IMG/VR virus record: IMGVR_UViG_3300010296_000008
Location: 1-60,968 of that record
Strand: one strand, 5' to 3'
Length of the DNA stretch: 60,968 nt
Origin: a virus
Shown: positions 25,354 to 56,307 of the stretch, piece by piece
How positions within the stretch are numbered: position 1 is the first letter of the stretch
Layout: the number at the start of each line of letters is the position of its first letter
Program-made: the position numbers and the translations under genes
Notes under the pieces: model-generated
Seen by the model: only the letters and a program-made list of their open reading frames with translations
What the model was told of the DNA's origin: nothing
The model's database searches: none

Positions 25354-26187
25354 ATGGCACAACAAACAAACAAAAAAGACCAGTATGGTCTATTTTCTGT
25401 TTTTCCCAAGTTTGTCTATCGTGGTAGACTGCAAACTCACGAAAAGTGGAAATCTATCATTTCTCCTGTGATTCAGGATCGATGGGATAAACTTCCTTCC
25501 AACAGTAACGTTCCTGGCGGTCCCGCTTGTTGGGAATGTGATTGTTTTACAACCTTTTTTGACCCAAGTTTGATGGAGTTTGAGAAGGAGACTGAAATTG
25601 ATCTCCAAGCTCTTCTTCAAGATCTTTCTACAAATATTCAGGAAGCTGTCAAACTGGCGGAGTTCTATCCTCACGCTTTCTTGGTCTCGCAGCAATGGTT
25701 CAACGCTTATGGACCTGGACAGCACCAAGAGGCACACAACCACATCCCTTCTCACCTGTCTGGGGTGTACTACGTTCAGTTTGATCCCCGTGTCCATAAA
25801 GGTACTACTTTCCTAAACCACGAAAAGATGTATACCGAGGGACCTCGGTATAACAAGTACTTCTATGACCAAGATATGTGGGGTTATGGATGCTACAAGG
25901 AAGAGATGACTCTTGCTGTTGAAGAAGGAGACGTGATTCTCTTCCCGTCACAACTTGAGCATATGGTGCACAAGCAACCTGGAATCGAGAAGAATCCAGA
26001 TGGAACCATCCGAATCACGTTCTCGTTTAACGTTGATCTTGTCAGTGAATCAGAGGCAAAAGAGCGTCTGAATGATCAAATGGCAAAAACTCCTACTGCC
26101 CCTCAAGCTGAAGGCAACATTCCTTTAGATCAGAATATTGCTAATGCTCCTCAAGGCAATGAAGAGTGGTCCTCTGACTGGTTCTAA
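25354..26187 (+). CDS. 2OG-Fe(II) oxygenase family protein, fourth copy
   Basis: 277 residues. The signature EAHNHIPSHLSGVYYVQFDP, GDVILFPSQLEHMVH and IRITFSFNVD matches the family of the tandem genes at 2543 and 3232. Candidate iron ligands are H128/H130 (HNH) and H203. The N-terminal 110 residues are specific to this copy, and the C-terminal 45 are a Gln/Asn/Pro-rich tail. The substrate is unknown. It has its own late box, unlike the other oxygenases, which suggests a function tied to virion production or late host physiology. Confidence 0.8.
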   Translation: MAQQTNKKDQYGLFSVFPKFVYRGRLQTHEKWKSIISPVIQDRWDKLPSNSNVPGGPACWECDCFTTFFDPSLMEFEKETEIDLQALLQDLSTNIQEAVKLAEFYPHAFLVSQQWFNAYGPGQHQEAHNHIPSHLSGVYYVQFDPRVHKGTTFLNHEKMYTEGPRYNKYFYDQDMWGYGCYKEEMTLAVEEGDVILFPSQLEHMVHKQPGIEKNPDGTIRITFSFNVDLVSESEAKERLNDQMAKTPTAPQAEGNIPLDQNIANAPQGNEEWSSDWF

Positions 26188-39774: not shown

Positions 39775-40422
39775 ATGACTGAACAATTACTTCCTATTCG
39801 TCCTCTTGAGCTAATGCTCAATGAGGACTTGACTAAAGTTGAATTTAATGACCATATTGGCATATGGGAAAACTTTATGCCAGAGAGTCAATGTAAAAAA
39901 TTCATTGACTGGTATAATACGTTTGGTGAAGTTGCTTCGGTAAAGAGTAACTTTGATGAGACTCCTGGTGATGGAAGATTTCAATTTCCAAATCGTGCAT
40001 TGGGAAGATCTGACAAGCAAATTTTGGTCAATCATAATAATCACGAATTATCCCAATCTTGCAATCAACATATTCACTCTTGCTTAGATCATTATATCTT
40101 CCAGTATGGTCAGCTTTCTGGGCAGGATATGATGAGTACTTGCATTAAGTTTCAACATACTCCTGCTGGTGGTGGATATCATCAGTGGCATTACGAAGCA
40201 ATGGGATTAGATCATTCTGCTAGAGTACTCGTCTGGGCAGTATATCTCAATGAAGATTTTGAAGGTGGAGAAACAGAATTTTTAGATCAAAAGCGTCGTA
40301 TTAAACCTACTACAGGGACTGTTATAATTTGGCCAGCTGGATATACTCATACCCACAAAGGAAACACAGTTCTTAGTGGGGATAAATATATCTTGACTGG
40401 ATGGTATCTTCTCAATAATTAA
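39775..40422 (+). CDS. 2OG-Fe(II) oxygenase with HxE variant, fifth copy
   Basis: 215 residues. The beta-helix core reads YHQWHYEAMGLDHSARVLVWAVYLN, GGETEFLDQKRRIKPTTGTVIIWPAGYTHTHKG and KYILTGWY, a prolyl-4-hydroxylase-like layout. The metal site is H139-Y-E141 with distal H192 or H194, so the usual Asp of HxD is Glu. HxE sites are known in some functional members, so activity cannot be excluded. It lies directly after the collar array and before the fibre-chaperone-like gene; modification of tail proteins would be an attractive but unproven role. Confidence 0.78.
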   Translation: MTEQLLPIRPLELMLNEDLTKVEFNDHIGIWENFMPESQCKKFIDWYNTFGEVASVKSNFDETPGDGRFQFPNRALGRSDKQILVNHNNHELSQSCNQHIHSCLDHYIFQYGQLSGQDMMSTCIKFQHTPAGGGYHQWHYEAMGLDHSARVLVWAVYLNEDFEGGETEFLDQKRRIKPTTGTVIIWPAGYTHTHKGNTVLSGDKYILTGWYLLNN

Positions 40423-41079: not shown

Positions 41080-41766
41080 ATGTTTTATCGTTATGAATTC
41101 TTGAGCAGCGTAAAGTTAAATCATATCAATAACTTCTACGATTTCTGCGATTGGGTTGATGGATCTAGAACAGGATCTGAAAACAAAAAGTTGAAGAACA
41201 ACTGGGAGATGGATCTGCCCAATACACACAGCGCCTGGAAAATAATCGAGGAAGATTGGCGTACTAATGTGACTATTGGGCATTTCTTGACTCCTATCAA
41301 GAATACTTTACCGTTGTTTGTTAAGTATGAACCTGGATGCCTTTACGATTGGCATTGTGATAATACTTTAATGGGTGAGAATGAGGATGTCCGATCTGAT
41401 GTTAGCACCACAGTTTTCTTGAACAATCCCGATGAGTATGAGGGGGGAGAACTAGAGATAGAAATTGGCACACAAACTTTTGATGTTAAATTGCCAGCTG
41501 GTTGGGCGTTCAGTTATCCCACTGGCACCAGACACAGAGTCAGAGAGATTACATCTGGTGTTAGAAAAGCTGCTATTATATGGTCTCAGTCATTGTTTCG
41601 AAACTCAGTTGATAGAGAAGCATATGGAAGGAATCGTAAACTGTCTGCGGACCTATCAAAATGTGTTCCGAAAGAGCGTATTTCGCCTGCAGGAGATATG
41701 TGGCACATACAACAGGCAATAGATGATCAGCAAATGTACTTGTTGAGAAGTAAAGCAGAACTTTGA
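41080..41766 (+). CDS. PKHD-type 2OG-Fe(II) hydroxylase, sixth copy
   Basis: 228 residues with a complete triad: H92-C-D94 (YDWHCDN) and H152 (GTRHRVRE), followed by R159-region GVRKAAIIWSQS for the co-substrate. Supporting strands are LFVKYEPG, STTVFLNNPDEYEGGELEIE and KLPAGWAFSYPTG. This is the PiuC/YbiX-like hydroxylase subfamily. The substrate is unknown. It is the last gene before the late box at 41770 and the giant tail gene, so it forms a short operon with the HxE oxygenase and the fibre chaperone. Confidence 0.85.
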   Translation: MFYRYEFLSSVKLNHINNFYDFCDWVDGSRTGSENKKLKNNWEMDLPNTHSAWKIIEEDWRTNVTIGHFLTPIKNTLPLFVKYEPGCLYDWHCDNTLMGENEDVRSDVSTTVFLNNPDEYEGGELEIEIGTQTFDVKLPAGWAFSYPTGTRHRVREITSGVRKAAIIWSQSLFRNSVDREAYGRNRKLSADLSKCVPKERISPAGDMWHIQQAIDDQQMYLLRSKAEL

Positions 41767-41811: not shown

Positions 41812-44800
41812 ATGAGCAATAGAATTATTGCAAGAATTTCTAAGGAAAATCAAGCAGGCGCTGTTATCGAGAGAGCAAAGCAACGCTTTACATCTCTGAA
41901 GAAGACTCAAGATCTGTCTAGACTAAAGACAGTGTTTCTTGATTTCGATTCTAAAGATGATAACTTCATCAATATTCTGAAGGGAGATGATTTCCCTGAG
42001 GTTATTGCTGCTATCTGGGATAGAGAAACTTTTATCGGCGGAGTTGAAACTGCTGATGTTTCTCTTGCTCCAGAAGAAGACTTTGTTCTGAGTGCTAATA
42101 GTCAGACTAGAAGAGATGTTGTTTCTCCTCTGACTACTAGCACAGATGAACTTGATAATCTCGCAAGACAAATTAGACCTCAAGAATACGGCAACGTAAT
42201 TCCTTATTCTGTTGGTGCTGGTACTACGTATTCTGTTACCGCTACAGTTGTCAATACCAGTGCTGGTCCAAAGATTTATTTCAATGGCGTCTACGAAGCT
42301 CCTGACCTGACTTTCCTGTTCCCAGGAATGGAGTTGATCATCAACGTTTCTGATAATACCAACTTTGGTTATACAATTGCTTTCTCCGAAACCCCTGATG
42401 GTACACACAACGATGGAACTGAGTACGTTGTAGGTGTCTCTAGAACATCCACTCCTGGTACCATTGGTGCGGAAGTTAGACTGTCGATTAGTCAGACAAC
42501 TCCACAACAGCTTTACATTTATGCAAAAGAAACTTCAAGAGCTGGTATCCGTGGCAGTGGATTTGTTAATGCCTCTGATTCCTCTAAGGTTGCAATGTTT
42601 AGCAAGTGGTACCTTGCTCGTATCACTCAACAGCAAAATGGTCTGAACTACGGTCTGTACTCTTACACTGAGCACGGTGATGGGGTAGACGTTTACATTA
42701 TGGATACGGGCATTCGTGGAGCATCGCGTCCCAGCAGCCCTACTGGTGCCAACTTACACCCCGAATTATTCCACCCAGACTTTGCTGATGATTACAATGA
42801 TGTAGGTAATCAATCAATATACAGAGTTTATGAAGTGCCTGGATTTAATTCTGGGTATACAGTTAACGGTGAAGCAAATTCTAACGAAGATGATAATGGT
42901 CACGGTACCGAGTGTGCTATTCTCATCGGTGGTTTGCAGCACGGGATGGCGCGTAAAGTAAGATTTTATGCTCTGAAAGTTCAAGCTAGCAATGGCAGTG
43001 GATATTTGTCCGACTATGTGAATGGTCTGCTGGCAATTATTAACCACAATGATCCTTCTCATCCCAATTGGAAAGGTAATTCTCGTCCTGCAATTATTAA
43101 TGCTTCGGTTGGCGTCAATGTTCCTTCGGAAGTATATCGTTACGTTCCTCAGAACGAACCTGGATTCGATAGCGGTGCATATGAAGCAGACACCGCAATG
43201 GATGACTATGAGAACTTCTGTGTAGATAACGGTATTGTCTTTGTCCGCTCTGCTGGTAACGGTTTTGGTTATAACATTCAGTACGGTGGTTTCCAGGCTA
43301 AGTTTAACCCTGGTCCTCGTACTGCTGGTCCTCAGGATTACAGATATAATATGGAGGGGATTGGCGACAAGATTTCTGTCGGTGCCACAGCTTTCAACAA
43401 TACATTCTCTGGATTCTCAAATTATGGTACTGGCGTAACAATTAGTGCTCCTGGTGAGTCTATCTATTGCCCTCGTTACTACTGGAATACTAACAGTGCA
43501 TATAGCACAGTTACTAATGTTTACTATGGATACATCAGAGGTACTTCATTCTCTGGTCCTCTAACTGCAGGTGTTATCGCCCAGTACCTAGGCAAAAAAG
43601 GATATCAAAATAGAACGACTTACGAAGGTAAATCTGTTCCCAAACTTGCTAAAGAATGGCTTCGTAGAAATATTGACTGGGATTACGAAAGAGAGCAGTC
43701 AGCTGTTGGCGAAGAATATGGTGGCGGTAGCGTCAATGTGTATCCTACCAATGATATTGATGAAATCACTCTCGATGGTATTAACACATATGTGAGTGTT
43801 GGTGCTGGTACCAATGAAATCTCTATTACCTTAGGTAGTGAGTATTCTAGATTTAATCCTGCACTCGGAGATTATATTCAATTCCGTATTCCCGAAGCAA
43901 TTCCTGCTACTGATATTATTACTGATGTTTGGGTTAGCAGTGATGGATCTCCCACCGCAGCATATTATAAATCTGGTGGTCAACTGAATGTTGTTACAGA
44001 TAATGATCCCTCTCCTGGTCTTGCTGGAGTATTCCCCTCTGGTGGTACTACTGGTTATGTTTCTACTTTGTCTATCCAGAATCAAGGTTCTGGTTATACA
44101 TTAACACCAACAGTTTCCTTCAGTGGTGGTGGCGGTAATGGCGCTGCAGCAACCGCTGGTATTACACTGACTGGTGGTAATATCACCAGCATTAATGTCG
44201 ATCAGTCTGGTTCTGGTTATACCTCAGCACCAACTGTTGTCATTCAAGGTGATGGTCAAGATGCAACTGCAGAAGCTACTATTGCTTTGACTGGTGGTGG
44301 TGTTGAGAGCGTCACAGTTACTAATGGTGGTTCTGGTTACAACCCGTTGAATCTGCCTGCCATCACATTTACTGGTGGCGGTGGTTCTAATGCTACTGCA
44401 GTAGCTACAGTTGTTGATGGTATTATTACTGCTATTACTATTCAGAATCCTGGTTCTGGATATTCTAGTGCTCCTACAGTTGGTATTGCAGTTTCTGCTC
44501 CTCCCAACCAAGGCACCACTATTCATACTCCCGATAGCAGCTTTGTTAGTGGTGGTGGATCCACAACCTCTGCATCTCTTAACCAAACAACTAGATTGTT
44601 GACGGTTGTTGCTGACAACTTACCTCAACCTTCTCTCTACGGTTCATTCCCTAACGCAAATAATGGTAACGCGATTACGGGTCAATCTTACAACCATACT
44701 TTTGTCTACCGTGGTGGTAGAAACATTAGCGATGAGACACCTACCAATACTACAGACGCAGCTTCTGTCGGTATTGCACTGAATGGTGTTCAACTACGCC

Positions 44801-47800
44801 ATTATTCGCACGGTTTGAATGTTGATCTGCCTAATGGAACTGGTTGTCCCGATGGTTATACCTTTAACAAGGTCTTTAATTCCACTGCATTTGGTACCGA
44901 TAATGGTGGTGGAACAGTCGATAACTCTGGTGTTTACCATTATTTCACTGGCAACTTCTTTATTAATAGCTGGAAAGGATCTACGACGACATATACAGTC
45001 ACAGTTGCTAATCCTGGTACTGGTAACAAGTACTATCTGAATGGTGGATTGACACCTAATCTTATTCTTACCGAAGGCAATACGTATTACTTTGATCAGA
45101 GTGATTCTTCGAACACTGGTTTCCCGTTCAGACTTTCTGCAACACAAGATGGTGTTCATACACAGGGCGGTGTAGTTTATACTATTGGTATCAGATACCA
45201 GGGCACTCCTGGCGATGGTCAATCTGGCACTGGTTTGTATATTCAGGTTCAACCTTCCAGTCCTAACCTTTTCTACTATTGTTCTCTTTACCCTGGTTAC
45301 GGTAATGCAGCTTCTGTTACTACAGTTGCTAATAATGCTGCTCTGCCTTCTCATACAACCACTGACGTTATCAATGCAACCCATCACTCTCCGATTATCG
45401 GATATGCGTATGATGGTTATCCGATCTATGGTCCTATCGGATATGATAGTCCTGGATCTCCGACCACGCTTGCAAGAATGCAATCTTCTTATAGTCTGAA
45501 GACACAGCGTGATGGTGAGCAGTATGCTGGTTCTACCTACACTTGGAGTGTTTCAGCTGACGATAATTTAGATTTCGACTTCACTGGTGAATCTACTGGT
45601 TCTGACGTTTCGATCACTGCCAACGTTGGCGACAACCTTGTGTTTAACGTCAATGCTCAGTATACAACTGGTGGCGGTGGCGGTAGCACACCGAATACCT
45701 ATAACTTAGTTGTTACTGCATCTAGTTTCTCTGATTATACAGTCTCTGGTTCTGATAGAACTGGTAATATTAATGGACTGGATCCTGCCTTAACATTCTA
45801 CGAAGGTGATACAATTAATTTCACGGTTTCTGCTACCAATCACCCATTCTATTTGAAGACAGTTCAGGGTGCTGGTACAGGTAATCAAATCTCTGGTGTT
45901 ACCAATCAAGGTACAACTAGCGGAACTGTTTCTTGGACTCCTGGTTCTGGTACTGCTGGAACTTATTACTATCAGTGCGGTAACCACCAGGATATGTGGG
46001 GCACAATCACGATTCAATCTGCTGGTGGTGGTGGCGGAGAAACTATTACCCATCCTTTCTGGATTCAGACAGTTCCTGCTCCTTACAACCCCACTCAGGT
46101 TGTTGGTAGTGTGACAAACAACGGTACTTTCAATGGTACTATTCTTTGGAGTACAACCACTGCGTCTCCTGGAACATATTACTATGTTTGCGAAAACCAC
46201 CAGGATATGACAGGTACGATTACCTTAACAGAGCCTGTGGGTTATGCACCTTCTACAACTGCATATCCTCTTGGTTCTTTTGTTGAGGACTATGAGTATA
46301 ATGGAAGTGGTCACCTTGACCGTCGTAATGGTAGATTCTGCATTACTCCTGACTTCCCAGGTGGTACATATGCATACTTTATGACATTTGATGCATCTGC
46401 CAACCCTGCATTCCCCTATATTCTGGGTGATCGATACTATGGTGAGGCGATTGTTGAAGGAGTAAGTGCTCCTCAAAACCCACTATTTGAGCAACCCGCT
46501 TCTGCTAGTTGTTCGATTGGTACACAAATCGGTGTTGTGGATAGCATCACTGTGACTGATCCTGGTGTGGGTTATACATATGCAAATATCTCATTCACTG
46601 GTGGCGGTGGTGTCGGTGCTGCAGCATCTGCTAATATCTCCGTTCTCGATGGTTATGTTTCTAGTGTGACAATAGTTGAGCAAGGTACAGATTACGTTAC
46701 TGCTCCTGCTGTTACTATTTCACCTCCGAACGTTAGTGGTGGTGTTCAGGCAACTGCTGTTGCGTCTATTGCAATTACTGCAGGTAACCCGAACAGTATT
46801 GCGAAGCAAAGCTTCAACCAAGACTTTAACTGGAGAGGTGGTACTAACTACCGCACAACTAATCCTGTTAACAAACCTCTGCGTAGTGTGGATCCTTTTG
46901 GTCTGACTACAACAGGTGCATTTATTTACCACTATTCTTTTGAGGGTGGTCCTGTTCCTGGTTGGACTTATAACACGGTGACCAATGGTAACCTTGTGGG
47001 TGAAGATGCTTATGGTGGTTATCCCAATAGCAACAACGTTTATGGATATAACTCCAGTAAACTGTTGAATGCATATGGTTCTACTGCAATTGCAGATTCT
47101 AACTATCTGTCTAGTTCTTATTACGATCTTGGTTTCCGTACAGTTAATTACACGGTTACAGTTGCCGCTAAGTCTGTACTCAATCCTTACTATCAGGTTG
47201 GTGGCAATGAAGCTTATGTGATTCAAGGTGACGACTTTACAGTTGGTGTTGAGTCTCCTGAGCTTGCATTTACTAGAGGTAATACTTACATCTTCAATCA
47301 GACTGATTCTAGTAATGACGGTCATCCGATGTACTTCTCTTCTACAGACGATGGCATTTGGAATGGTGGTGTTCGTTATGGTGTTGGCATCACCTATCGA
47401 TTAGATGGTGCTGCAGTTGATGCTGTTACATATACAAATAACTTCAATTCTGCAACTACTCGTACTATTGCCATTGTCGTTGCTCAGACTGCACCAAATC
47501 AGTTGTATTATGTCTGTGTGAACCATCAGAGAATGGGTAATGGTATTGATGTCAACAGCAACGTTCAAGGCGATTATAAGCGCCACCCAGACGGTCACTC
47601 TAAGATCCTTGGTATGTCATTTGATGGATATCCCATCTATGGTCCTTATGGTTATTCTGATCGTGACGATGAGAATAGCACGGTCATTCGTATGAAGCCT
47701 GCATACCTGCCTAAACTGGAGAATAGAATTCCAGATATGTTTGCTTCACGTCCTGATGAAGGCACATATCCGATTGGATCTTTTGTCGAAGACTTTGAAT

Positions 47801-50800
47801 TCCAAGGTGGCGTTGATGAAGATAACATAACAGACGTTACATTCATTGTTCAGGCAGCTGCTGCTACAACATCTGGTAGTGGTGGTCGTTACTATATCTC
47901 TGGTGGTACATTAACTGGTTCTGCCGAAAAACCTGCGTTCAACTTCAAGAAAGGTAGAAAATATATCTTTAATCTTTCTGATGGTTCTAATGAAACGCAC
48001 GCTATGTTATTCTCCACCAGTGGAGATGCACAAGCACAAGGTTGGCACGTTGCTGGTTCTACAGTTGGTGATGCAAATGCTGTCTACAGCAATGGCGTTG
48101 TCTACAAACTGGAGAATGTAGAGGTCACTTATCAAGAATATGTTGATGGGTTTGATGCTGCAACTCTAAGATCCATTGAGTACACACCCACATCTAATGC
48201 TCCTCACGTTCTGTACTACTTCTGTTACAACCACCCTAATATGGGTGAGCGTATCATTATTGGTGATGTTGATAGCAGAAATGGACGTTATTGTGTGACG
48301 CCTGATTATCCGAATGGTACCTACGCTTATTTCATCACTGAAGATATCAATGGTAACCCTGCATATCCTTATGTGCTAGGTAATCAGTTCTATTCTCAAC
48401 CTGTATTCCCTGGCGATTTGGTCGCAAACAATACTGCATATGTGTATGAAATTGGTGGTATTCAGTTTAATATTCTGCAGAGATACTGGCATCAAATTAC
48501 TTCTGTTGATACTCAGAACGGCAGAATTCAGATCGAACCAGATGGTGCGGCATTTACTGGTATATTCTCCGAGCAAGGTGGTAACCTTTTGAAGGTTGCT
48601 AATCTCACTGGTACACACCAACGTGCTGATGGTATTCAGCGTTGGATTAATGAAAATCCTGTTGGTAATAAACTGTACTTCCAGACAGAAGCTCAGGAAG
48701 ATGCTGGTGAGGGTGAGGGTACCGAAATTATCTACCTCCCTGTTGATAAGGGTGTTGATGGTGGATTTGTTAAGGGTCTCTTCTCTCCTTATATCAATCT
48801 CTTGACAACTTGGTATACACCTCCTGGTGCTCTTGGCACTTACAATATTGGTGACACAGTTAATCTGCAACTGGGTGTTTCGTTCCTCAGAACATATGCA
48901 GCAGAAACAATTCTGGATAGAGATTATTCTCTGACTGGCGATTCTATTGCTGGCACTGGTCTGTCTTTTGATACTGAGACTGGTGTCCTGAGTGGTATCC
49001 TGATCAATAATACTACTCTTGACTTGACATTAACTGTCGAAGAGAATATTTCTGGTCAGACTCAAACCTACACCATTCAGCTGACAAACACCACCATCAC
49101 GGTGCAAAATGTTTCTCTGAAGACTCCTGGAACATCCAAGACTATTGACTACAACGCTGTTACTAAGAAGAGTGGTCAACCTCACGATGATGAGATTTGG
49201 AATGAAAACCAGTGGTATGCTCGTCCATTCTCCTATAAGTCTTTTAGCGTTCTTGCTTATCAGACTGGTTATGAGAATTCTCAGTTTGAATATCTGCCTC
49301 AGTGGCAAATTTTCAAGGACAAGGGTCAGGGTACACAATGGTATAACATCAACGAGTACTCTACGGGTCCTGTGGGTCCTGGTCAGTCTTGCCAACTGGA
49401 AGATGGTGACTGGTTCGAGAACAATGTTGAAGCAAGAGACGAATTCTACTCTTACGAGGAGAAATTCGAAGATGTCACTGGTCACGAGATTGGAATCTCT
49501 TATCTTGTGTGTAACAAGTGGTGGAAGTATGACCAAGATTTCTTCCGTTGCAAGCTCCGTTATCGTTTGATCTTTAATTTGGTTGCAACTGGTAATGATT
49601 ACGCTGTTGTTGTGAACCAGTCTGGTTCTACCGTGTTTGAAGTTCCCAAAGGTGCAACATATCGTTTCGATATCAGCGATTCTTCTTGGTTGGGTAAGAA
49701 TTTGGAGCTTAGAGAGAGTGCAACTGGCACTGCATACACTGGAATTAACGTTAGACGTTATGGCACTCCTGGTACTGCTGGTGCTTGGGTGGATCTCATC
49801 ATTAATGAGGGTCATACTGGCAGCGTTTTCTACTTCGGTCAATCTGGTGGTAGCACATTTGCATCTCAGCACTTAGACTTTACAAGTGTCTTCACTGCTC
49901 TTCTTTCTAACACTCTGCAACTAACAGTTCAGAATACTCCTACAGTTCCTGCACAGCCTCTGCTGACACTGCTCAGTGGTGCTACCGCTATCACTTCTAA
50001 CACATATTCTGTGGTGACTGAGTATGGTGGTCTTACACACTTCCCCAATACACTTCCTTATCAATCTAGCAATAGATCTCCTAAGGCGGGTCGTTATCCT
50101 GTGGAACTTCTCTGTACTGACCAGAATATTGAATTCAACTGGTATCGTAAGCTCTATGATTATAATACCTCTAACGGTGTGAAATCTTATAACTGGGATA
50201 CAGTTACCAACACCTACAGCACATATGTGCCTCTGGATTCTCCCCACTTTAGATCTAGAAGAGATTATGGTAATGAACTGACTAATTACCAAACTTCTTG
50301 TACTCTTGATGGTGTTAGCAACTATAGAGAAAACTATATTTCTTTCGATGAAGAGTTCCCTCTTCGTGTGAATTATGGTGGTCCGAAGATTGAGATTCCT
50401 GTTCAATCTCCTTCTTCGCTGTTACCTCCTCTTGCAAATAATGGTAGCGTGATCCGTGTTACCGATCTACCTTGTAAGGGTACACCTAAAGGTAAAAATG
50501 ATCCTTACTCTTATCAGATTACAGTTGGTAATGGCAATACCATTTCCTCTGTGTCTAATGAAATTACCGTTATTCCTAATCCTCCCGAGTTAGGTATGTG
50601 GTGGTATGAGTATGATAATGGTTGGACTGGTACTGTTTCTAACGGTTATCTGCGTCACGATCAAGGTTTCGTTGATACTACCCTGACTTGCGGTGATTAC
50701 TTCGGTAATGTCTACATTCGTTCTTTTGTTATTGACGTGGGTCCTGCACCTCTGAGTGCACTGCCTTATATCGATGTCAATACTATGAAAGTTCAGGATT

Positions 50801-51498
50801 ACTATAAGGGTGCACAGAACTTTACAGTCCAGAACAACCAGTCTCAAGATGTGATCATCTCTTACACAATCGATGCTGGTCAGTTTACCTGGAGAATGCG
50901 TTTAATCAATGAATTCCCCTATATGGAGACTGTTGATGGTGGTACTAGAACTATCTACACTTTGAATAATCCTACTCACGCGAATGGTCCTACAGTTGTT
51001 AATACTGGTGACTTTACTACTTACACAGGTCAGCTCGCAACTGCAACTGGTTTACTTCGTGAGTGTCCTTTCCGTGGCGACACAAGCATCAATATGCCTG
51101 TGGACTTCTCTGTGAAGAATGACATTCAACCTGCTGTCTTCCCCGCACGTGGTACTCAAAAGGTCTATACACTGTGGGTTGAGCTGGTCGAATCTCCCTT
51201 CGATCTGGTTGATTTGATTAACCTCGTTGCTGTTGCTGATCCTTGTCAGGATCAGACATATGATTTTGCATACACCTCTAACGGTGCTTGCATCACTCCT
51301 TCTAATGATTACTTCTGTAACTTCATCAAGCCTCTGCGTGATCGCAATCACCCAGAACAACCGATCATCGGTATGGAAGGCGTGGCACAGATCAGAGTGA
51401 CAGATGGTATTTCGCCAAGAACTCTGGATTTCCAAGTTCCTTCTCCTTGGCCGATTCTGTTCTCCTACTTGGGAGACTGTAACCCTACCTGCGCATAA
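41812..51498 (+). CDS. Giant virion protein: subtilisin-like protease, YHYH and cupredoxin-like domains
   Basis: 3,228 residues. A subtilase domain (about 285-620) has D298 (VYIMDTGI), H364 (NGHGTECA), oxyanion N483 (SAGNG) and S579 (GTSFSGP), a complete triad. GxGYxxxPTV beta repeats follow (about 750-900 and 1570-1640). Two YHYH-type domains end in GYPIYGPxGY (H1191-H1192 region and H1929 region). Four cupredoxin-like domains carry full type-1 copper ligand sets: H1344/C1389/H1392/M1395, H1414/C1460/H1463/M1466, H1838/C1902/H1905/M1908, H2063/C2138/H2141/M2144; a fifth (C1157) is degenerate. A putative Ig domain (LSFDTETGVLSG) lies near residue 2400. It is probably a tail fibre or baseplate-peripheral protein. 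Confidence 0.8.
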   Translation: MSNRIIARISKENQAGAVIERAKQRFTSLKKTQDLSRLKTVFLDFDSKDDNFINILKGDDFPEVIAAIWDRETFIGGVETADVSLAPEEDFVLSANSQTRRDVVSPLTTSTDELDNLARQIRPQEYGNVIPYSVGAGTTYSVTATVVNTSAGPKIYFNGVYEAPDLTFLFPGMELIINVSDNTNFGYTIAFSETPDGTHNDGTEYVVGVSRTSTPGTIGAEVRLSISQTTPQQLYIYAKETSRAGIRGSGFVNASDSSKVAMFSKWYLARITQQQNGLNYGLYSYTEHGDGVDVYIMDTGIRGASRPSSPTGANLHPELFHPDFADDYNDVGNQSIYRVYEVPGFNSGYTVNGEANSNEDDNGHGTECAILIGGLQHGMARKVRFYALKVQASNGSGYLSDYVNGLLAIINHNDPSHPNWKGNSRPAIINASVGVNVPSEVYRYVPQNEPGFDSGAYEADTAMDDYENFCVDNGIVFVRSAGNGFGYNIQYGGFQAKFNPGPRTAGPQDYRYNMEGIGDKISVGATAFNNTFSGFSNYGTGVTISAPGESIYCPRYYWNTNSAYSTVTNVYYGYIRGTSFSGPLTAGVIAQYLGKKGYQNRTTYEGKSVPKLAKEWLRRNIDWDYEREQSAVGEEYGGGSVNVYPTNDIDEITLDGINTYVSVGAGTNEISITLGSEYSRFNPALGDYIQFRIPEAIPATDIITDVWVSSDGSPTAAYYKSGGQLNVVTDNDPSPGLAGVFPSGGTTGYVSTLSIQNQGSGYTLTPTVSFSGGGGNGAAATAGITLTGGNITSINVDQSGSGYTSAPTVVIQGDGQDATAEATIALTGGGVESVTVTNGGSGYNPLNLPAITFTGGGGSNATAVATVVDGIITAITIQNPGSGYSSAPTVGIAVSAPPNQGTTIHTPDSSFVSGGGSTTSASLNQTTRLLTVVADNLPQPSLYGSFPNANNGNAITGQSYNHTFVYRGGRNISDETPTNTTDAASVGIALNGVQLRHYSHGLNVDLPNGTGCPDGYTFNKVFNSTAFGTDNGGGTVDNSGVYHYFTGNFFINSWKGSTTTYTVTVANPGTGNKYYLNGGLTPNLILTEGNTYYFDQSDSSNTGFPFRLSATQDGVHTQGGVVYTIGIRYQGTPGDGQSGTGLYIQVQPSSPNLFYYCSLYPGYGNAASVTTVANNAALPSHTTTDVINATHHSPIIGYAYDGYPIYGPIGYDSPGSPTTLARMQSSYSLKTQRDGEQYAGSTYTWSVSADDNLDFDFTGESTGSDVSITANVGDNLVFNVNAQYTTGGGGGSTPNTYNLVVTASSFSDYTVSGSDRTGNINGLDPALTFYEGDTINFTVSATNHPFYLKTVQGAGTGNQISGVTNQGTTSGTVSWTPGSGTAGTYYYQCGNHQDMWGTITIQSAGGGGGETITHPFWIQTVPAPYNPTQVVGSVTNNGTFNGTILWSTTTASPGTYYYVCENHQDMTGTITLTEPVGYAPSTTAYPLGSFVEDYEYNGSGHLDRRNGRFCITPDFPGGTYAYFMTFDASANPAFPYILGDRYYGEAIVEGVSAPQNPLFEQPASASCSIGTQIGVVDSITVTDPGVGYTYANISFTGGGGVGAAASANISVLDGYVSSVTIVEQGTDYVTAPAVTISPPNVSGGVQATAVASIAITAGNPNSIAKQSFNQDFNWRGGTNYRTTNPVNKPLRSVDPFGLTTTGAFIYHYSFEGGPVPGWTYNTVTNGNLVGEDAYGGYPNSNNVYGYNSSKLLNAYGSTAIADSNYLSSSYYDLGFRTVNYTVTVAAKSVLNPYYQVGGNEAYVIQGDDFTVGVESPELAFTRGNTYIFNQTDSSNDGHPMYFSSTDDGIWNGGVRYGVGITYRLDGAAVDAVTYTNNFNSATTRTIAIVVAQTAPNQLYYVCVNHQRMGNGIDVNSNVQGDYKRHPDGHSKILGMSFDGYPIYGPYGYSDRDDENSTVIRMKPAYLPKLENRIPDMFASRPDEGTYPIGSFVEDFEFQGGVDEDNITDVTFIVQAAAATTSGSGGRYYISGGTLTGSAEKPAFNFKKGRKYIFNLSDGSNETHAMLFSTSGDAQAQGWHVAGSTVGDANAVYSNGVVYKLENVEVTYQEYVDGFDAATLRSIEYTPTSNAPHVLYYFCYNHPNMGERIIIGDVDSRNGRYCVTPDYPNGTYAYFITEDINGNPAYPYVLGNQFYSQPVFPGDLVANNTAYVYEIGGIQFNILQRYWHQITSVDTQNGRIQIEPDGAAFTGIFSEQGGNLLKVANLTGTHQRADGIQRWINENPVGNKLYFQTEAQEDAGEGEGTEIIYLPVDKGVDGGFVKGLFSPYINLLTTWYTPPGALGTYNIGDTVNLQLGVSFLRTYAAETILDRDYSLTGDSIAGTGLSFDTETGVLSGILINNTTLDLTLTVEENISGQTQTYTIQLTNTTITVQNVSLKTPGTSKTIDYNAVTKKSGQPHDDEIWNENQWYARPFSYKSFSVLAYQTGYENSQFEYLPQWQIFKDKGQGTQWYNINEYSTGPVGPGQSCQLEDGDWFENNVEARDEFYSYEEKFEDVTGHEIGISYLVCNKWWKYDQDFFRCKLRYRLIFNLVATGNDYAVVVNQSGSTVFEVPKGATYRFDISDSSWLGKNLELRESATGTAYTGINVRRYGTPGTAGAWVDLIINEGHTGSVFYFGQSGGSTFASQHLDFTSVFTALLSNTLQLTVQNTPTVPAQPLLTLLSGATAITSNTYSVVTEYGGLTHFPNTLPYQSSNRSPKAGRYPVELLCTDQNIEFNWYRKLYDYNTSNGVKSYNWDTVTNTYSTYVPLDSPHFRSRRDYGNELTNYQTSCTLDGVSNYRENYISFDEEFPLRVNYGGPKIEIPVQSPSSLLPPLANNGSVIRVTDLPCKGTPKGKNDPYSYQITVGNGNTISSVSNEITVIPNPPELGMWWYEYDNGWTGTVSNGYLRHDQGFVDTTLTCGDYFGNVYIRSFVIDVGPAPLSALPYIDVNTMKVQDYYKGAQNFTVQNNQSQDVIISYTIDAGQFTWRMRLINEFPYMETVDGGTRTIYTLNNPTHANGPTVVNTGDFTTYTGQLATATGLLRECPFRGDTSINMPVDFSVKNDIQPAVFPARGTQKVYTLWVELVESPFDLVDLINLVAVADPCQDQTYDFAYTSNGACITPSNDYFCNFIKPLRDRNHPEQPIIGMEGVAQIRVTDGISPRTLDFQVPSPWPILFSYLGDCNPTCA

Positions 51499-51522
51499 AT
51501 TATAATATAGGAAACAAGCAAA

Positions 51523-53469
51523 ATGGCACTAATTTTCCCACCCGCTCTTGGGAGTATTCCATCGCCTGCATCTCTAACCCCTAACCTCGTTACCAGTACA
51601 TTTACTGGTGAGGTTGGGGTCGGTGCTCACGATTCGACAGACTGGCAGATTGCTACGTCGAATACTTTCAGTGCAGCTTCACTAGTTTATAATCAGAATG
51701 ATACTGTTAACTTAACTTCGTTTACAGTTCCTGCTAGTACTTTAACACTCAACACGATTTACTTTCTACGTGTTAGACATCGTGATGATGCGGGTGAGAT
51801 TTCTAATTGGTCTCAAACTGCAGAATTTAACACTGGTTTACCTATTGGTACTCCTATTGTTAGCGTGTCTTCTCCGACACCACTGATTCCTATTATTACT
51901 TCATCTTCTTTCGTTGGTGCTAATACACACACAAGAACTGATTGGCAGATTGCTACCGATTTTCTATTTGAAAGTATTGTTGAAGAGTTAATTGATACTC
52001 CTAGTAGTCTCACGCAATATACTCCTCAAACACTCTCTTATAATACTCTGTATTATGTGAGAGTAAGATATAAAGATAATCTTGGCGTTTATTCTGAGTA
52101 TAGTGCTCCCGTATCGTTCTATACCGACACTCAGATTAATGTCAATCCTAGGATCGATCGTCCTAGTATTCTCAATCCTACAGATAATGTTGTAAATGTT
52201 AGCATCACGCCTACATTTACATCGAGTGGTTTCTCTGGTGCTAATGGTGCCACACACGTGGCGTCTACGTGGGAAATTGCTACAACGCCTACATTCGGCA
52301 GCAGTAGTGGATCAGCGCCTGGAGTTTCTGGTTCTCCATCTCCACAGATTAGCAACACTAGCGGTCTAATCTATCAGTCGATTGGTGATATTAACAACAA
52401 AACTAGTATTACTATCAACTCTGGTATTTTAGAAGAAGCACGTACGTATTATGTACGTGTTAGATATGAATATGTTGATCTCCAAAGCGTTACTTGGTAT
52501 TCTGAATGGTCAGAACCAATTCAATTTGGTACAGTCAATGTTCCTGGCGAAATTCAGTCTCCCTTTGTTAGCAGCGTGATTCAGTCTACTATCTATGATA
52601 GACTAGACGTAACAACATCACCGTATGTTGCTACTCAAACTGCAGCACAGACTCACGTTTATAGTGATTGGCAAGTTGCAACGGATGCTGCATTCAATAA
52701 CCTCGTGATTGTTGCTACAGAGGATACCACGAACAGAACAACGTTCCCGATTCCTCTCGATTCTATTCGCCCTTCAACAAATTATTATGTTAGAGTTCGT
52801 TATTATAATGGCAGCATTTATTCTGCTTATTCCCCTGGTTTCCTCTTCCAGTCGCCTGCAACCGCAACTGGTACGCTGCAAGACTTCACACGAGTCCAGA
52901 CAGATACGCTAGATGACCTGTCGGTGTCTACAAACAAGATCATTAACTTGTCTGTGACAACACCGAAACTAGCAGATAATGCTGTGACTGCAGCTAAGAT
53001 TGCTATAGGTGGTATTATCGCAGGAAACCTCCAAAACGGATCTGTTACTGAACCAAAGCTCTATCAAGTTCCTGGTAGCGAAGCTGTTACTACATCTACT
53101 ATTCGTAACAGTGCTGTTACTTCACCTAAAATTTCTGATGGTGCGGTGACAACTACTAAGATTGATATTAGTGGTTCTGTTGACCCTTCGACTCCTGTTG
53201 AAGGTCAAGTGTTTTATAATACATCTCAAAGCACATTTAAGACTTATAACGGTGTAAATTGGAAAGAGTCTGGTGATGCTGGTGATTATTATATTATTCG
53301 TAAACCTCAACCTGGCGATACCAATTTAACCATTGTGTATGCTGGTAGACAAACAAACATTTCTTATGATGAGTATTCTTCCCCATTAAATACTCACCAA
53401 TTCTTCGCACCAAGCGGGTTGGTATTTGATATAGATACTAATGGGCATCTTGTCGTCACTGTAAGATAA
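51523..53469 (+). CDS. Fibronectin III-like tail protein
   Basis: 648 residues. At least four repeats of about 100 residues share the layout ...SxFxGxxxHxxTDWQIAT...LxxxTxYYVRVRYxD..GxYSxYS (for example HDSTDWQIATSNTFS, HTRTDWQIATDFLFE, HVYSDWQVATDAAFN), a fibronectin type III-like pattern common in tail fibres. The C-terminal part has short 'NSAVTSPKISDGAVTTTKID' coil repeats and a terminal KTYNGVNWKE cap that often ends phage fibres. It is probably an adhesion or spacer protein next to the giant gene. A weak late-like box (CATAAATT, 51494-51501) lies before it. Confidence 0.7.
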   Translation: MALIFPPALGSIPSPASLTPNLVTSTFTGEVGVGAHDSTDWQIATSNTFSAASLVYNQNDTVNLTSFTVPASTLTLNTIYFLRVRHRDDAGEISNWSQTAEFNTGLPIGTPIVSVSSPTPLIPIITSSSFVGANTHTRTDWQIATDFLFESIVEELIDTPSSLTQYTPQTLSYNTLYYVRVRYKDNLGVYSEYSAPVSFYTDTQINVNPRIDRPSILNPTDNVVNVSITPTFTSSGFSGANGATHVASTWEIATTPTFGSSSGSAPGVSGSPSPQISNTSGLIYQSIGDINNKTSITINSGILEEARTYYVRVRYEYVDLQSVTWYSEWSEPIQFGTVNVPGEIQSPFVSSVIQSTIYDRLDVTTSPYVATQTAAQTHVYSDWQVATDAAFNNLVIVATEDTTNRTTFPIPLDSIRPSTNYYVRVRYYNGSIYSAYSPGFLFQSPATATGTLQDFTRVQTDTLDDLSVSTNKIINLSVTTPKLADNAVTAAKIAIGGIIAGNLQNGSVTEPKLYQVPGSEAVTTSTIRNSAVTSPKISDGAVTTTKIDISGSVDPSTPVEGQVFYNTSQSTFKTYNGVNWKESGDAGDYYIIRKPQPGDTNLTIVYAGRQTNISYDEYSSPLNTHQFFAPSGLVFDIDTNGHLVVTVR

Positions 53470-54729
53470 ATGGCAGAATTTTTCATCGACGTAGGTAAGA
53501 TTAAGCTTACCTGGCAGGGAAACTGGTCAAACGCCACGGCATACGTGGTGGATGATTTAGTTTGGTATGACGACGGGAGTACCGTTAGTAGTTACATTTG
53601 TGTTGCAGATCACACAAATCAACCACCGTCTGTTACTGGTATTGTAGATACAAACTACTGGAATTTATTTGCTGGTGGTGGTCTCGCTGGTGGTCTACAA
53701 CCTGGAGGTACTGCAACAAATCAAATTCAGTATAGATCTGGTTTAGCGCTAGGTGGAGAACCAGGATTTGAATATGATCCTGCAACTGACATTATGTCTG
53801 TTCCTGCTATCAGTGTAATTGGTGGCGCAGCTGGTGCACCAACGCACGACATTGACGTTGCTGGTTCTATCCACGCTAACGGATTCTATGATGGTGCCAA
53901 TCAACTGACATATAATATTAGTGGTGCTCAGATTACAACTGGCACTGTTGATAATGCTAGACTGCCTTCGACTATTACCGCAACTGCTTTATCTGCTACC
54001 ACGGGTTTTTCTGTAAAGACAAGTGGTATTTACTTTGACAATACCACCGATCGCGTCGGTATTGGTACTGCAGTTCCTGCAACACGTTTGGATGTGAGAT
54101 CTATTGCAACACCTACAGCTGATGATATTGTTGCTAGATTTAGATCTGACCATACCAATGCATTTGGTACCTTCATCGAAGTGATGCCAAACACTGCGCA
54201 GGCACAGAAGTCTGGCATTCATCTACATAAGAACTCTTTGAGAACTGAACCAGCTACCATTTCTAATGATGGTGGTGTTCTTACTATTAGCACTGCGGAT
54301 ACTTTTGCTCCTACGGTTAATATAGATCTGGGTGGCATCAATAAGTTTATGTTGACTTCTGATTTATTAGAAATCAACACACCATTTAGAATTAATGGTT
54401 GCTTCGACGAAGCTGTATCCAATCTGGCAATTAATACTGGTGTAGTTGATGTTGATGCGACTGATGCTTCCGTTTTCACAATTACGAGAAGCGAAATTAT
54501 TAGCGCTATGAATATTACACTACCCGCTAATGCTCGTTCCGTTTCTCTTACATTCGTTATGACATCAAATGGTAGTTACAGTGTTACTTGGCCCGCAAAT
54601 ACTAGGTGGGCTGGTGGTACTCCTCCTAATCTATCTTCCACTGCTGGTAGAATTGATGTAATTACATTATCAACCACTAATAATGGTATTACTTGGTTAG
54701 GTTTCGTTGGGGGGTTAGACTTTCAATGA
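53470..54729 (+). CDS. Tail fibre-like protein with WxGxW N-terminal module
   Basis: 419 residues. The N-terminal 70 residues (IDVGKIKLTWQGNWSNATAYVVDDLVWYDDGSTVSSYICVADHTNQPP in part) form an aromatic module that is repeated at the start of the gene at 55387. The rest has GLALGGEPGFEYDPATDIMSV, VDNARLPSTI and TRLDVRSIATPTADDI, a fibre-like repertoire, and an end domain (SVSLTFVMTSNGSYSVTWP) similar in layout to that of the 305-residue paralogue. The module resembles carbohydrate-binding 'W...Y..gD.V.y.g..Y.c' domains. It abuts the preceding gene (stop then ATG). Confidence 0.68.
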   Translation: MAEFFIDVGKIKLTWQGNWSNATAYVVDDLVWYDDGSTVSSYICVADHTNQPPSVTGIVDTNYWNLFAGGGLAGGLQPGGTATNQIQYRSGLALGGEPGFEYDPATDIMSVPAISVIGGAAGAPTHDIDVAGSIHANGFYDGANQLTYNISGAQITTGTVDNARLPSTITATALSATTGFSVKTSGIYFDNTTDRVGIGTAVPATRLDVRSIATPTADDIVARFRSDHTNAFGTFIEVMPNTAQAQKSGIHLHKNSLRTEPATISNDGGVLTISTADTFAPTVNIDLGGINKFMLTSDLLEINTPFRINGCFDEAVSNLAINTGVVDVDATDASVFTITRSEIISAMNITLPANARSVSLTFVMTSNGSYSVTWPANTRWAGGTPPNLSSTAGRIDVITLSTTNNGITWLGFVGGLDFQ

Positions 54730-55346
54730 GTCCTATTGGATTTGCAAAAGGTACTTTCTATTCTGCTGGACAAGATGGTGGCACCGCTTTGGGTCCATTG
54801 GAGTGGAATTATGCCGATGGCGCTACATTAACTGGAGGAGCGACGGGAGATGCTATCAACATTGCTATAGCATCTAATGTTGGTACATTCCGTAGAACTG
54901 GTGATTTATTGGGTGGATTAACTCTTGCAACAGTGAATAATGTATTGTATCTCTCTGGAACTCTAGCTCAATTTGGATATGCTGCGGTGCAGGTTGATGA
55001 GGGTAATACATATACCTTAAACGCATCAGACTATGGTGTAACAAAAACATTTCAAATTAGTGTTAGTGGCGAGACGAGAGAGTATAGTATGAGGCAGGTT
55101 GGTAATCTTTTGATTGCCAAACAATTTGAATCATATGGTACTCCCAATTCAACTTGGAATGGATTAGTATCTCAACAGCAAGATGCTACCCAAAATGTTG
55201 GCGCAAGTGTGAGTGGATGTAATTCCAGCACCCAAAGACTATCTAATGGTGGCGTAGCTACTGTTAATATCAATGCTACTAACTCTAATTACGGTGATCC
55301 CTGTCAGGGTACCTTTAAGAGAGTATTCACCTATTACACAATTTAA
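54726..55346 (+). CDS. Tail-associated protein of unknown type
   Basis: 206 residues from the ATG at 54726, which overlaps the previous stop (ATGA). A start at 54693 would overlap more and lacks a ribosome binding site. The protein is small-residue and Asn/Thr/Gly-rich and looks beta-structured throughout (GPLEWNYADGATLTGGATG, LYLSGTLAQFGYAAVQVDEGNTY, TFQISVSGETREYSMRQVGN). Two cysteines near the end (SGCNSSTQ, GDPCQG) could pair. No catalytic motif. Its position makes it a fibre tip or accessory protein by association. Confidence 0.6.
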   Translation: MSPIGFAKGTFYSAGQDGGTALGPLEWNYADGATLTGGATGDAINIAIASNVGTFRRTGDLLGGLTLATVNNVLYLSGTLAQFGYAAVQVDEGNTYTLNASDYGVTKTFQISVSGETREYSMRQVGNLLIAKQFESYGTPNSTWNGLVSQQQDATQNVGASVSGCNSSTQRLSNGGVATVNINATNSNYGDPCQGTFKRVFTYYTI

Positions 55347-55351
55347 TAGAC

Positions 55352-55359
55352 CATAAATA
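55352..55359 (+). promoter_or_regulatory. Late promoter box
   Basis: CATAAATA, 35 bases before the ATG at 55387, in the 40-base gap between two tail genes. Confidence 0.6.
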
Positions 55360-55386
55360 AACAAAGAGAACAAGTACCTGAGATAG

Positions 55387-56304
55387 ATGGCTCTCACAAT
55401 CGACGTTGGTAAGATTAAAATTAAGTGGAAGGGTACCTACAATCCCGTCACTTCTTATGAAGTAGATGATGCCGTAAGTTTTTACGACGGTGCCACTACC
55501 TCTGCATATATTTGTATTCAGAACAGCACTGGTAATGCACCTGCTGCAAACAATGTGCTCGATTCGCATTGGGAATATCTAGCACGTGGTACTGAATCTG
55601 CATCTGGTGGTACTGCAGATGGTCAGATCCAATATAAAGCTGGTACTGGTTTCGCTGGAGAGACAGGATTCTCTTATGACGATACTTCTAACACTCTTAC
55701 TGCTCCAAACGCTACTATCACTGGTAACCTTACGGTCCAAGGTACCACCACTACAGTAGACACCACAAATACTACGATTTCCGACAATACAATCGTTTTA
55801 AATAGTGGCGAGACAGGTGCTGGTGTTACACACTCTGATGGAGAATCTGGTATTGAGATTGAGAGAGGTAGTGAACTCAATACTAAGCTTGTTTGGAATG
55901 AAACTGCAGATTACTTTACTCACTTGCTTGGCAGTGGTCCTGCCAGAGTACACGTTTCTGCTTACTCCGAGACAGTGCAAGCAGAATCAGTTAGCGCTGG
56001 TAACGTTTCGATTGATTTAACTCAGTCTACTGTGTACACAGTTACTCTTACTGAGAATGTAAACTCCTTCAGTATTACAGGTGAGCAAGCAGGTGCATCT
56101 ACCAGCTTCATTCTTGTGCTAACTCAGGATGGTGTTGGTGGTAGAACAGTTGATCTGAGTGGATTCACTGGTCGTACTGTTAAGTGGGCAGGTGGTGTGG
56201 TTCCTACTGTGTCTACTAACCCGAACGCTACAGATATTTTCCTCTTCACCACATTTAACGGCGGTACAATTTACTACGGTTTCACATCTGGTCAGGAGTT
56301 CTGA
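55387..56304 (+). CDS. Tail fibre-like protein, paralogue of the 53470 gene
   Basis: 305 residues. The N-terminal module (IDVGKIKIKWKGTYNPVTSYEVDDAVSFYDGATTSAYICIQNST in part) is homologous to the start of the gene at 53470. A typical phage fibre unit follows (NLTVQGTTTTVDTTNTTISD, NTIVLNSGETGAGVT, SGIEIERGS), which is known in many cyanophage fibres as a trimeric intertwined region. The C-terminal domain (VDLSGFTGRTVKWAGGVVP, FLFTTFNGGTIYYGF) parallels the end of the 419-residue paralogue. It is probably a short fibre. Confidence 0.7.
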   Translation: MALTIDVGKIKIKWKGTYNPVTSYEVDDAVSFYDGATTSAYICIQNSTGNAPAANNVLDSHWEYLARGTESASGGTADGQIQYKAGTGFAGETGFSYDDTSNTLTAPNATITGNLTVQGTTTTVDTTNTTISDNTIVLNSGETGAGVTHSDGESGIEIERGSELNTKLVWNETADYFTHLLGSGPARVHVSAYSETVQAESVSAGNVSIDLTQSTVYTVTLTENVNSFSITGEQAGASTSFILVLTQDGVGGRTVDLSGFTGRTVKWAGGVVPTVSTNPNATDIFLFTTFNGGTIYYGFTSGQEF

Positions 56305-56307
56305 TAA

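Follow-up and report, generated by a model that had tools for sequence, protein, structure and literature searches.

The window analyzed here is the whole 60,968-nucleotide stretch of IMG/VR virus record IMGVR_UViG_3300010296_000008, a marine phage. An ORF at 41812..51498 (+) encodes a 3228-aa baseplate/tail protein, which matches PHROG families of baseplate wedge and virion structural proteins (phrog_708, E 4e-161; phrog_27200, E 1e-167). Its N-terminal part carries a cupredoxin-like copy that has lost all ligands (copy N, 42223..42546, +, aa 138-245; Y, A, T, A in the ligand columns) and a subtilisin-like protease domain (42676..43605, +, aa 289-598; PF00082, 102 bits against a cut-off of 21.8) in which the DTGI, GHGTE and GTSFSGP motifs are present. 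No tandem repeats were found in the DNA of the ORF.

The central part of the protein contains two YHYH modules (PF14240, 151.6 bits for the protein against a cut-off of 25), each interrupted by cupredoxins at two places. Module 1 is split into piece 1 (44737..44994, +; profile 13-94), piece 2 (45358..45543, +; profile 84-146) and piece 3 (46204..46398, +; profile 124-185). Between pieces 1 and 2 lies the degenerate cupredoxin-like copy D1 (44980..45321, +; F, C, Y, Y), and between pieces 2 and 3 lie the N-terminal half of cupredoxin D3 (45526..45675, +, aa 1239-1288), the complete cupredoxin D2 (45685..46017, +; ligands H1344, C1389, H1392 and M1395) and the C-terminal half of D3 (46036..46239, +; ligands H1414, C1460, H1463 and M1466). 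The two halves of D3 align to positions 2-49 and 50-112 of an independent cupredoxin HMM and, when joined, form one collinear match, so that D2 is inserted in D3. D3 is therefore not a stray half domain, as it first appears.

In module 2, a diverged first part (46774..47136, +) is not reported by Pfam and is inferred from module 1, on the basis of an IYHYSFEGG motif and about 30% identity of module 2 to module 1 of two relatives (contigs L004/L008). It is followed by cupredoxin D4 (47137..47553, +; ligands H1838, C1902, H1905 and M1908), piece 2 (47590..47811, +; profile 90-154), cupredoxin D5 (47857..48276, +; ligands H2063, C2138, H2141 and M2144) and piece 3 (48256..48351, +; profile 154-185). 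A further cupredoxin-like copy without ligands (copy C, aa 2583-2681) is found at 49558..49854 (+). A tail-associated zinc hydrolase has been predicted for YHYH, with a metal site of three His and one Asp (PMC7824862). When the motifs were compared, by eye only, with those of four flavobacterial YHYH proteins, they were partly kept in module 1 and less so in module 2, and the second YHYH-type His motif reads TYAYF in both modules, so the predicted metal site looks partly lost.

The original prediction described four type-1 copper ligand sets in this protein, each ending in a C-x2-H-x2-M loop with an upstream His, and this observation is confirmed. CxxHxxM occurs at aa 1389, 1460, 1902 and 2138, with His at 1344, 1414, 1838 and 2063 in the contexts given, whereas only 0.0025 CxxHxxM motifs are expected per composition shuffle of this protein. 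Three further six-frame matches in the window (30914 +, 47738 + and 20089 -) lie in other frames and are not in this protein. A fifth copy, reported to have lost the His and Met (YYCSLYPGYG), is also real, and has additionally lost the upstream His (GFPF where D4 has GHPM). The prediction missed the insertion of D2 in D3, the setting within YHYH domains and the two further copies without ligands. The stretch of interest consequently starts near 45526 rather than 45800, and ends near 48276.

A confident structural model of aa 1233-1478 (pLDDT 91.1) matches cupredoxins. Of 249 Foldseek matches at E <= 0.001, the 50 inspected are copper nitrite reductases, laccases or multicopper oxidases, and D2 superposes on rusticyanin (Z 10.2, rmsd 2.2 Å, 96 residues, 28% identity) and on small laccases (Z 9.9). 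The structural superposition (VIA) rows cover almost only D2, so the fold of D3, whose strands are seen in two halves in the same model, rests on the model and the HMM. In both D2 and D3, the Cys is the last residue of the penultimate strand and the His and Met lie in the loop to the last strand, positions that fit a type-1 copper site. D4 and D5 rest on sequence and HMM matches alone, since a model of module 2 from a nine-row alignment reached a pLDDT of only 29 and was discarded. A phmmer search of the PDB with D2 alone finds three chains, all plastocyanins (E 0.07-0.11), and a profile of 13 relatives finds 43 PDB chains at E <= 1, of which 38 are cupredoxins; a chance resemblance was rejected on these grounds. 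The curated cut-offs of copper protein families are nevertheless not reached: plastocyanin TIGR02656 scores 18.9 bits (cut-off 87.85), amicyanin TIGR02657 15.0 bits (cut-off 110.2) and Pfam Copper-bind PF00127 15.3-15.5 bits (cut-off 21.2).

We next examined conservation of the ligands. Of 392 distinct domain matches, 36 lacked one of the four ligand columns and were left out. Among the remaining 356, the strong ligands (H, C, H) are all kept in 324, exactly two are kept in none, one in 18 and none in 14. Where H, C and H are kept, the axial Met is replaced only by Gln (8) or Leu (1), replacements that are native to stellacyanin and some laccases. Among the 19 ligand combinations observed, Cys is absent only where at least one His is absent too. 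These counts are not tree-corrected, and some tallies are biased because the search patterns partly contained the first His or the Cys. A tree-aware test found only three independent losses on well-supported branches, all in the expected direction but too few for significance.

Loss of the ligands in homologues had been named beforehand as a result that would count against the prediction, and close relatives were scored accordingly. D2 is HCHM in 16 of 16 contigs and D5 in 12 of 12 scorable relatives. D4 is HCHM in nine, HCHQ in one (L011) and lost in two (L002/L003, in which H, C and H are lost together) of 12 scorable relatives. Against full conservation, D3 is HCHM in only six of 13 scorable relatives and HSAM in the other seven. 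Contig L015, which is not an orthologue beyond D2, is counted only for D2, and contigs that end early (L004 and L008, and L006 for D4 and D5) are left out of the scorable sets. Several contigs look like near-copies (L002/L003, L005/L009 and L007/L010/L016). The ligands are thus conserved in D2 and D5, mostly in D4 and in about half of the relatives for D3.

The same kind of domain caps a tail protein in hundreds of marine cyanobacterial phages, a baseplate tail-fibre connector (323 phage records), and HCHM is found in 52 of 52 complete distinct C-terminal copies of the connector-centred loci. The gp9-type connectors of the isolates S-SM1, Syn9 and S-RIM2 are examples, so the claim would be cheap to test on phages already described. 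The window protein itself is not a gp9 connector (phrog_677) over its whole length: its best stretch covers only profile 246-409 of 412, the cupredoxin end, whereas S-SM1 gp9 matches 1-409. In T4, gp9 is present in 18 copies per virion. The domain is not universal, since the 49-kb segment that holds the baseplate genes of S-CREM2, a T4-like cyanophage with a measured virion proteome (PMC10665884), has no such domain. P-TIM40 was matched by tblastn but gave no row in the HMM tally. The domain also occurs in exported proteins of marine Bacteroidota, where it lies within six residues of the end in 53 of 68 rows and is HCHM in 61 of 62 rows with all columns.

In a tree that did not include PetE, D2 lies in a set of 15 cellular (Bacteroidota or unresolved Bacteroidetes) and nine phage rows (support 97/90), although many forks are unresolved with 115 columns. 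Capture of a host plastocyanin is therefore not favoured. Our best explanation is that D2, D3, D4 and D5 are true cupredoxin domains with predicted (His)2CysMet type-1 copper sites, belonging to a large uncharted family with a phage-only branch (D4, D5 and the dead copies N and D1) and a branch shared by phage baseplate connectors and exported proteins of marine Bacteroidota (D2, and by resemblance D3). In this view, the domains would be surface modules of the baseplate rim that bind copper, and the metal would fix the ligand loop into a rigid patch used for docking, either of fibres to the baseplate or of the baseplate to the host surface. As the protein is assembled in the cytoplasm, where free copper is scarce, the sites would be filled mainly after lysis, in seawater or at the host envelope. 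The fold of D2, the nesting of D3, the ligand set, its all-or-none conservation and the baseplate context were established by our analyses, whereas copper binding, the time of loading and the docking role are inferred. We give this explanation as a whole a probability of about 0.5; the cupredoxin fold is nearly certain and copper binding is likely, but the docking role has no direct evidence and remains tentative. The interpretation in the original prediction, that selection has maintained predicted metal-binding cupredoxin sites, is supported, with adhesion, electron transfer and metal sensing remaining as suggestions only.

Among the alternatives, the most viable is that bound copper serves only to stiffen a beta-sandwich that must survive in seawater, which we consider possible but less likely. 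The baseplate and C-terminal cap positions, the greater stability of holo-cupredoxins over apo forms, and the loss of ligands in D3 and D4 of some relatives are consistent with this. However, copies N, D1 and C persist without a ligand set (no complete set occurs among the listed N- and D1-position rows or in the nine C-copy rows). Copies that lost the ligands keep the fold signature, so the ligands are not needed merely to make the sandwich, and D2 and D5 keep theirs in every scorable close relative. A redox or sensing role is unlikely on present evidence. In that case, the sites would change between Cu(II) and Cu(I) on contact with the host envelope and help to trigger the baseplate, or pass electrons. 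The axial Met, Gln or Leu are residues that tune potential in characterized proteins, and the position at the fibre-to-baseplate connector could also fit, but there is no partner, enzyme centre or redox data, the up to four sites lie at undetermined distances, and the host surface need not be reducing.

It is similarly unlikely that the residues bind no metal and are kept for packing, or bind zinc, with the copper resemblance merely inherited. No holo protein is known, curated copper families are not reached and assembly is cytoplasmic, but the absence of domains with exactly two of H, C and H, the loss of Cys only together with at least one His, and the restricted axial replacements argue against this. 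Least likely is a metal-decoy or scavenging role, in which virions would bear copper, or strip it, so as to be taken for a copper ligand by uptake receptors or to lower copper toxicity, like the Ferrojan-horse idea for iron in tails; HxH iron sites in T4 and alterophage fibres (PMC11705849) and the presence of the domain on exported proteins of marine Bacteroidota offer some support, but a buried type-1 site gives up copper poorly and, by our rough estimate, tens of sites per virion cannot matter for seawater copper.

A more speculative and less likely reading, although not excluded, is that T4-like marine cyanophage virions are copper-bearing particles, with a C-terminal type-1 copper domain on each tail-fibre connector of the baseplate rim and further ones on giant rim proteins, released empty of copper and filled outside the cell, with copper status controlling adsorption or firing of the baseplate. 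The same extracellular copper module would have been exchanged between phages and marine Bacteroidota. If the sites hold copper, some of the commonest virus particles in the sea are copper metalloproteins, and a trace metal enters the question of how they attach to Prochlorococcus and Synechococcus. The sequence family is not reached by Pfam and NCBIfam at their cut-offs, and PHROGs hold it only as unknown or as baseplate protein.

Rusticyanin, plastocyanin and amicyanin share the fold and the ligand order H...C-x2-H-x2-M, with the spacing of amicyanin, but they are free electron carriers, whereas the present domains are modules of virion and surface proteins. Literature searches on cupredoxin, blue copper and plastocyanin-like domains in phage virions, tails, tail fibres and baseplates found no report of such a domain, judging in part from titles and with most subscription papers outside their reach, and a search on cupredoxins in cyanophages returned only a paper on Borgs. 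Cyanophage plastocyanin PetE (PMC3037559) is also a cyanophage-borne cupredoxin, but is a host-derived metabolic gene, while the domains described here lie inside baseplate/tail proteins. The HxH sites of T4 gp37 and alterophage fibres are trimeric fibre iron sites without a cupredoxin fold. Predicted structures of the Fadolivirus “Blue type 1 copper protein” and the Marseillevirus/Pithovirus “Beta-sandwich protein” also match our model (E 1.6e-6 to 3e-4), although these are giant-virus proteins of 124-425 residues rather than phage baseplate proteins.

The ORF at 41812-51498 (+) encodes a protein of 3228 aa. The original prediction was that this protein carries four complete type-1 copper (cupredoxin-like) ligand sets, and this observation was confirmed: the motif CxxHxxM occurs four times, at aa 1389, 1460, 1902 and 2138, against 0.0025 occurrences expected per shuffle of the same composition, and the upstream His residues stand where they had been placed. 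Using an iterated HMM, we found eight matches in the protein, comprising six whole copies and two halves: N (aa 138-245), D1 (aa 1057-1170), a half copy (aa 1242-1287), D2 (aa 1292-1402), the C-terminal half of D3 (aa 1412-1472), D4 (aa 1776-1914), D5 (aa 2016-2150) and C (aa 2583-2681). Copies N, D1 and C have lost the ligand set, with D1 keeping only the Cys.

D2 sits inside D3. The half copy matches HMM positions 4-53 and the C-terminal half of D3 matches positions 52-121. When we used an HMM built from 118 domains of phages outside the close relatives, the N-terminal half (aa 1239-1288) matched positions 2-49 (11.8 bits), the C-terminal half (aa 1409-1476) matched positions 50-112 (40.8 bits), and the joined pair gave a single collinear match of 52.7 bits. 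Glycine runs flank the insert. The AlphaFold2 model of aa 1233-1478, based on 35 alignment rows, has a mean pLDDT of 91.1, with stretches under 50 only at the two linkers; its pTM is 0.54, and the mutual placing of the two domains is therefore not reliable.

The predicted fold was compared with known structures. Foldseek lists 249 PDB matches at E <= 0.001, and the 50 rows examined are copper nitrite reductases, two-domain laccases or multicopper oxidases. Structural alignment with VIA-align places rusticyanin first (2cal; Z 10.2, rmsd 2.2, 96 residues, 28% identity, model positions 61-170, which correspond to D2), tied with small laccases at Z 9.4-9.9. By sequence, D2 alone finds three PDB chains, all of which are plastocyanins, at E 0.07-0.11. 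A profile of 13 relatives finds 43 chains at E <= 1, of which 38 are copper nitrite reductases, multicopper oxidases, auracyanin, pseudoazurin, plastocyanin, amicyanin and azurin, while the other five are a penicillin-binding protein (twice), EtpA, superoxide dismutase and LptD. The curated cut-offs for plastocyanin, amicyanin and Copper-bind are not reached, and the domains are therefore a separate family. The assignment of D4 and D5 rests on sequence alone.

To ask whether the ligands are under selection, we gathered 392 distinct domain matches from phages (IMG/VR and named records) and cellular genomes, 356 of which have all four ligand columns. Among these, 315 are H-C-H-M, 8 are H-C-H-Q and 1 is H-C-H-L. 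Of the three strong ligands, 324 domains keep three, none keeps exactly two, 18 keep one and 14 keep none; after clustering at 60% identity, the corresponding counts are 50/0/3/6 of 59. Fisher tests on these counts ignore shared descent. On the best tree built with the ligand columns masked, the upstream His changes 6 times and the Cys-His pair 8 times, but only three independent pairs lie on well-supported branches; where both differ they go the same way, although three cannot reach significance. In addition, the HMM was grown mostly on intact copies, and some of the search patterns contained the upstream His or the Cys. A phage clade (loci L109, L062, L097 and L042) has Gln as the axial ligand (HCHQ) in large tail proteins; this is the ligand set of stellacyanin.

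We then scored each site in the 16 close contigs, several of which are near-copies. D2 is HCHM in 16 of 16, and D5 in 12 of 12 scorable contigs. D4 is HCHM in 9, HCHQ in 1 and lost (N, G, gap, M) in 2 of 12, while D3 is HCHM in 6 and HSAM in 7 of 13. In these D3 and D4 losses, the Cys and the following His go together. The interpretation of the original prediction, that selection keeps cupredoxin-type ligand sets, is supported, but not its view of four equally kept sets: D2 and D5 are firm, D4 is nearly so, and D3 is optional.

Within the protein, Pfam finds a subtilase domain (aa 289-598; 42676-43605) with the three catalytic motifs of a subtilisin-like protease in place, and five YHYH pieces. 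An S8 protease that ends in a cupredoxin can also be found in phage S-H9-1. The YHYH pieces cover positions 13-94, 84-146 and 124-185 of the profile and then 90-154 and 154-185, with D1 and the D3/D2 nest between the first three, and D4 and D5 before and between the last two. Two YHYH modules thus carry inserts at the same two places, which we infer arose most simply by duplication of an already interrupted module, with D1 matching D4 and D3 matching D5 in position. YHYH has been predicted to be a tail-associated zinc-dependent hydrolase (PMC7824862), in a paper whose main text mentions no cupredoxin, plastocyanin or copper. By eye, the second YHYH-type motif reads TYAYF in both modules, which raises the possibility that this site is spent while the putative copper sites are kept.

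The neighbouring genes in this 60,968-base virus record match T4-like baseplate and tail families, including baseplate wedge, tail tube cap, baseplate hub, hub with tail lysozyme and short tail fibres. Three 2OG-Fe(II) oxygenase-like genes (25354-26187, 39775-40422 and 41080-41766) lie among the tail genes, and a 1399-aa ORF in the tail region (56308-60507) has no PHROG match at E 0.01.

The family extends far beyond this record. A D4-like domain is found in 309 phage records, nearly all of which are Synechococcus and Prochlorococcus phages; P-HM1 carries such a domain in its gp7 (46129-59469 of the record). A second type closes the protein annotated as baseplate wedge tail-fibre connector (gp9) in S-SM1 and is found by tblastn in 323 records. 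Of eight named phages retrieved for this type, seven (Syn9, MC09, P-TIM68, S-RIM14, ACG-2014d, S-RIM12 and S-RIM2) gave an HMM match, all HCHM, while P-TIM40 gave none at the threshold. In these phages and 80 IMG/VR loci, 53 distinct matches end within 8 residues of the stop; 52 are complete and all of these are HCHM, whereas the other is cut. For scale, the baseplate hub protein encoded at 14761-15474 is matched in 462 Synechococcus, Prochlorococcus and Cyanophage-named records, which are not necessarily a superset.

A scan of a collection of cellular genomes gave 63 loci, mostly from pelagic Flavobacteriia and other Bacteroidota, with single loci labelled Alphaproteobacteria, Paracoccaceae and Euryarchaeota. 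Identity to the D2-type query reaches 68%. Of 68 domain rows, 53 end within 6 residues of the stop, and a simple lipobox pattern was seen in 6 of 68, although many frames are cut by the contig end or fall outside the pattern. Marine Bacteroidota (for example, genome loci L157, L131 and L141) carry the domain at the C-terminal end of exported proteins, some with a lipobox and some behind long repeat regions, in what appears to be an unnamed surface family with this putative copper domain; the small protein of L157 consists of a signal sequence with lipobox plus this one domain. HCHM is present in 61 of the 62 rows with all columns, and the exception (DSNQ) has lost all four ligands. The tree splits the family into a phage-only branch (37 rows, with D4, D5, N and D1) and a mixed branch (45 rows) with the gp9-type domains, D2 and all 21 cellular rows. 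D2 lies in a set of 15 cellular and 9 phage rows (support 97/90), and at least 3 changes between phage and cell are forced.

Taken as sequence, these domains read as a surface module with a kept type-1 site. The copies in the same chain that have lost the ligand set show that the sandwich can do without copper, so copies with ligands probably use the metal for more than folding. We favour a docking patch at the baseplate rim that would be filled with copper after lysis, because the C-terminus of gp9 is the fibre end of the connector in T4. Whereas the fold of D2, the nesting of D2 in D3, the ligand sets and their pattern of conservation, and the baseplate setting come directly from the analysis, the binding of copper, its loading after lysis and the docking role are inferences. 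A role of the metal in stability alone remains a rival to this view, followed by redox triggering. The absence of any metal and a decoy role also remain as less likely alternatives. In the literature searched, we found no report of cupredoxins in phage tails or of copper in cyanophage virions, although plastocyanin as a phage metabolic gene (PMC3037559) and iron in fibres (PMC11705849) have been described. The fold is an old one, while its place in these proteins and the nested build are new relative to the literature searched.

The YHYH example cited in PMC7824862 (AOO14285.1) is numbered two before AOO14287.1, the gp9-type cupredoxin protein of S-RIM14 (positions 1-1773 of the locus retrieved from that phage), so YHYH and cupredoxin proteins are probable neighbours there. 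In phage locus L022, one protein (frame from 5431, aa 185-488) carries tandem cupredoxins with graded loss: one with an intact Cys loop, one HSSV and one ESNY.
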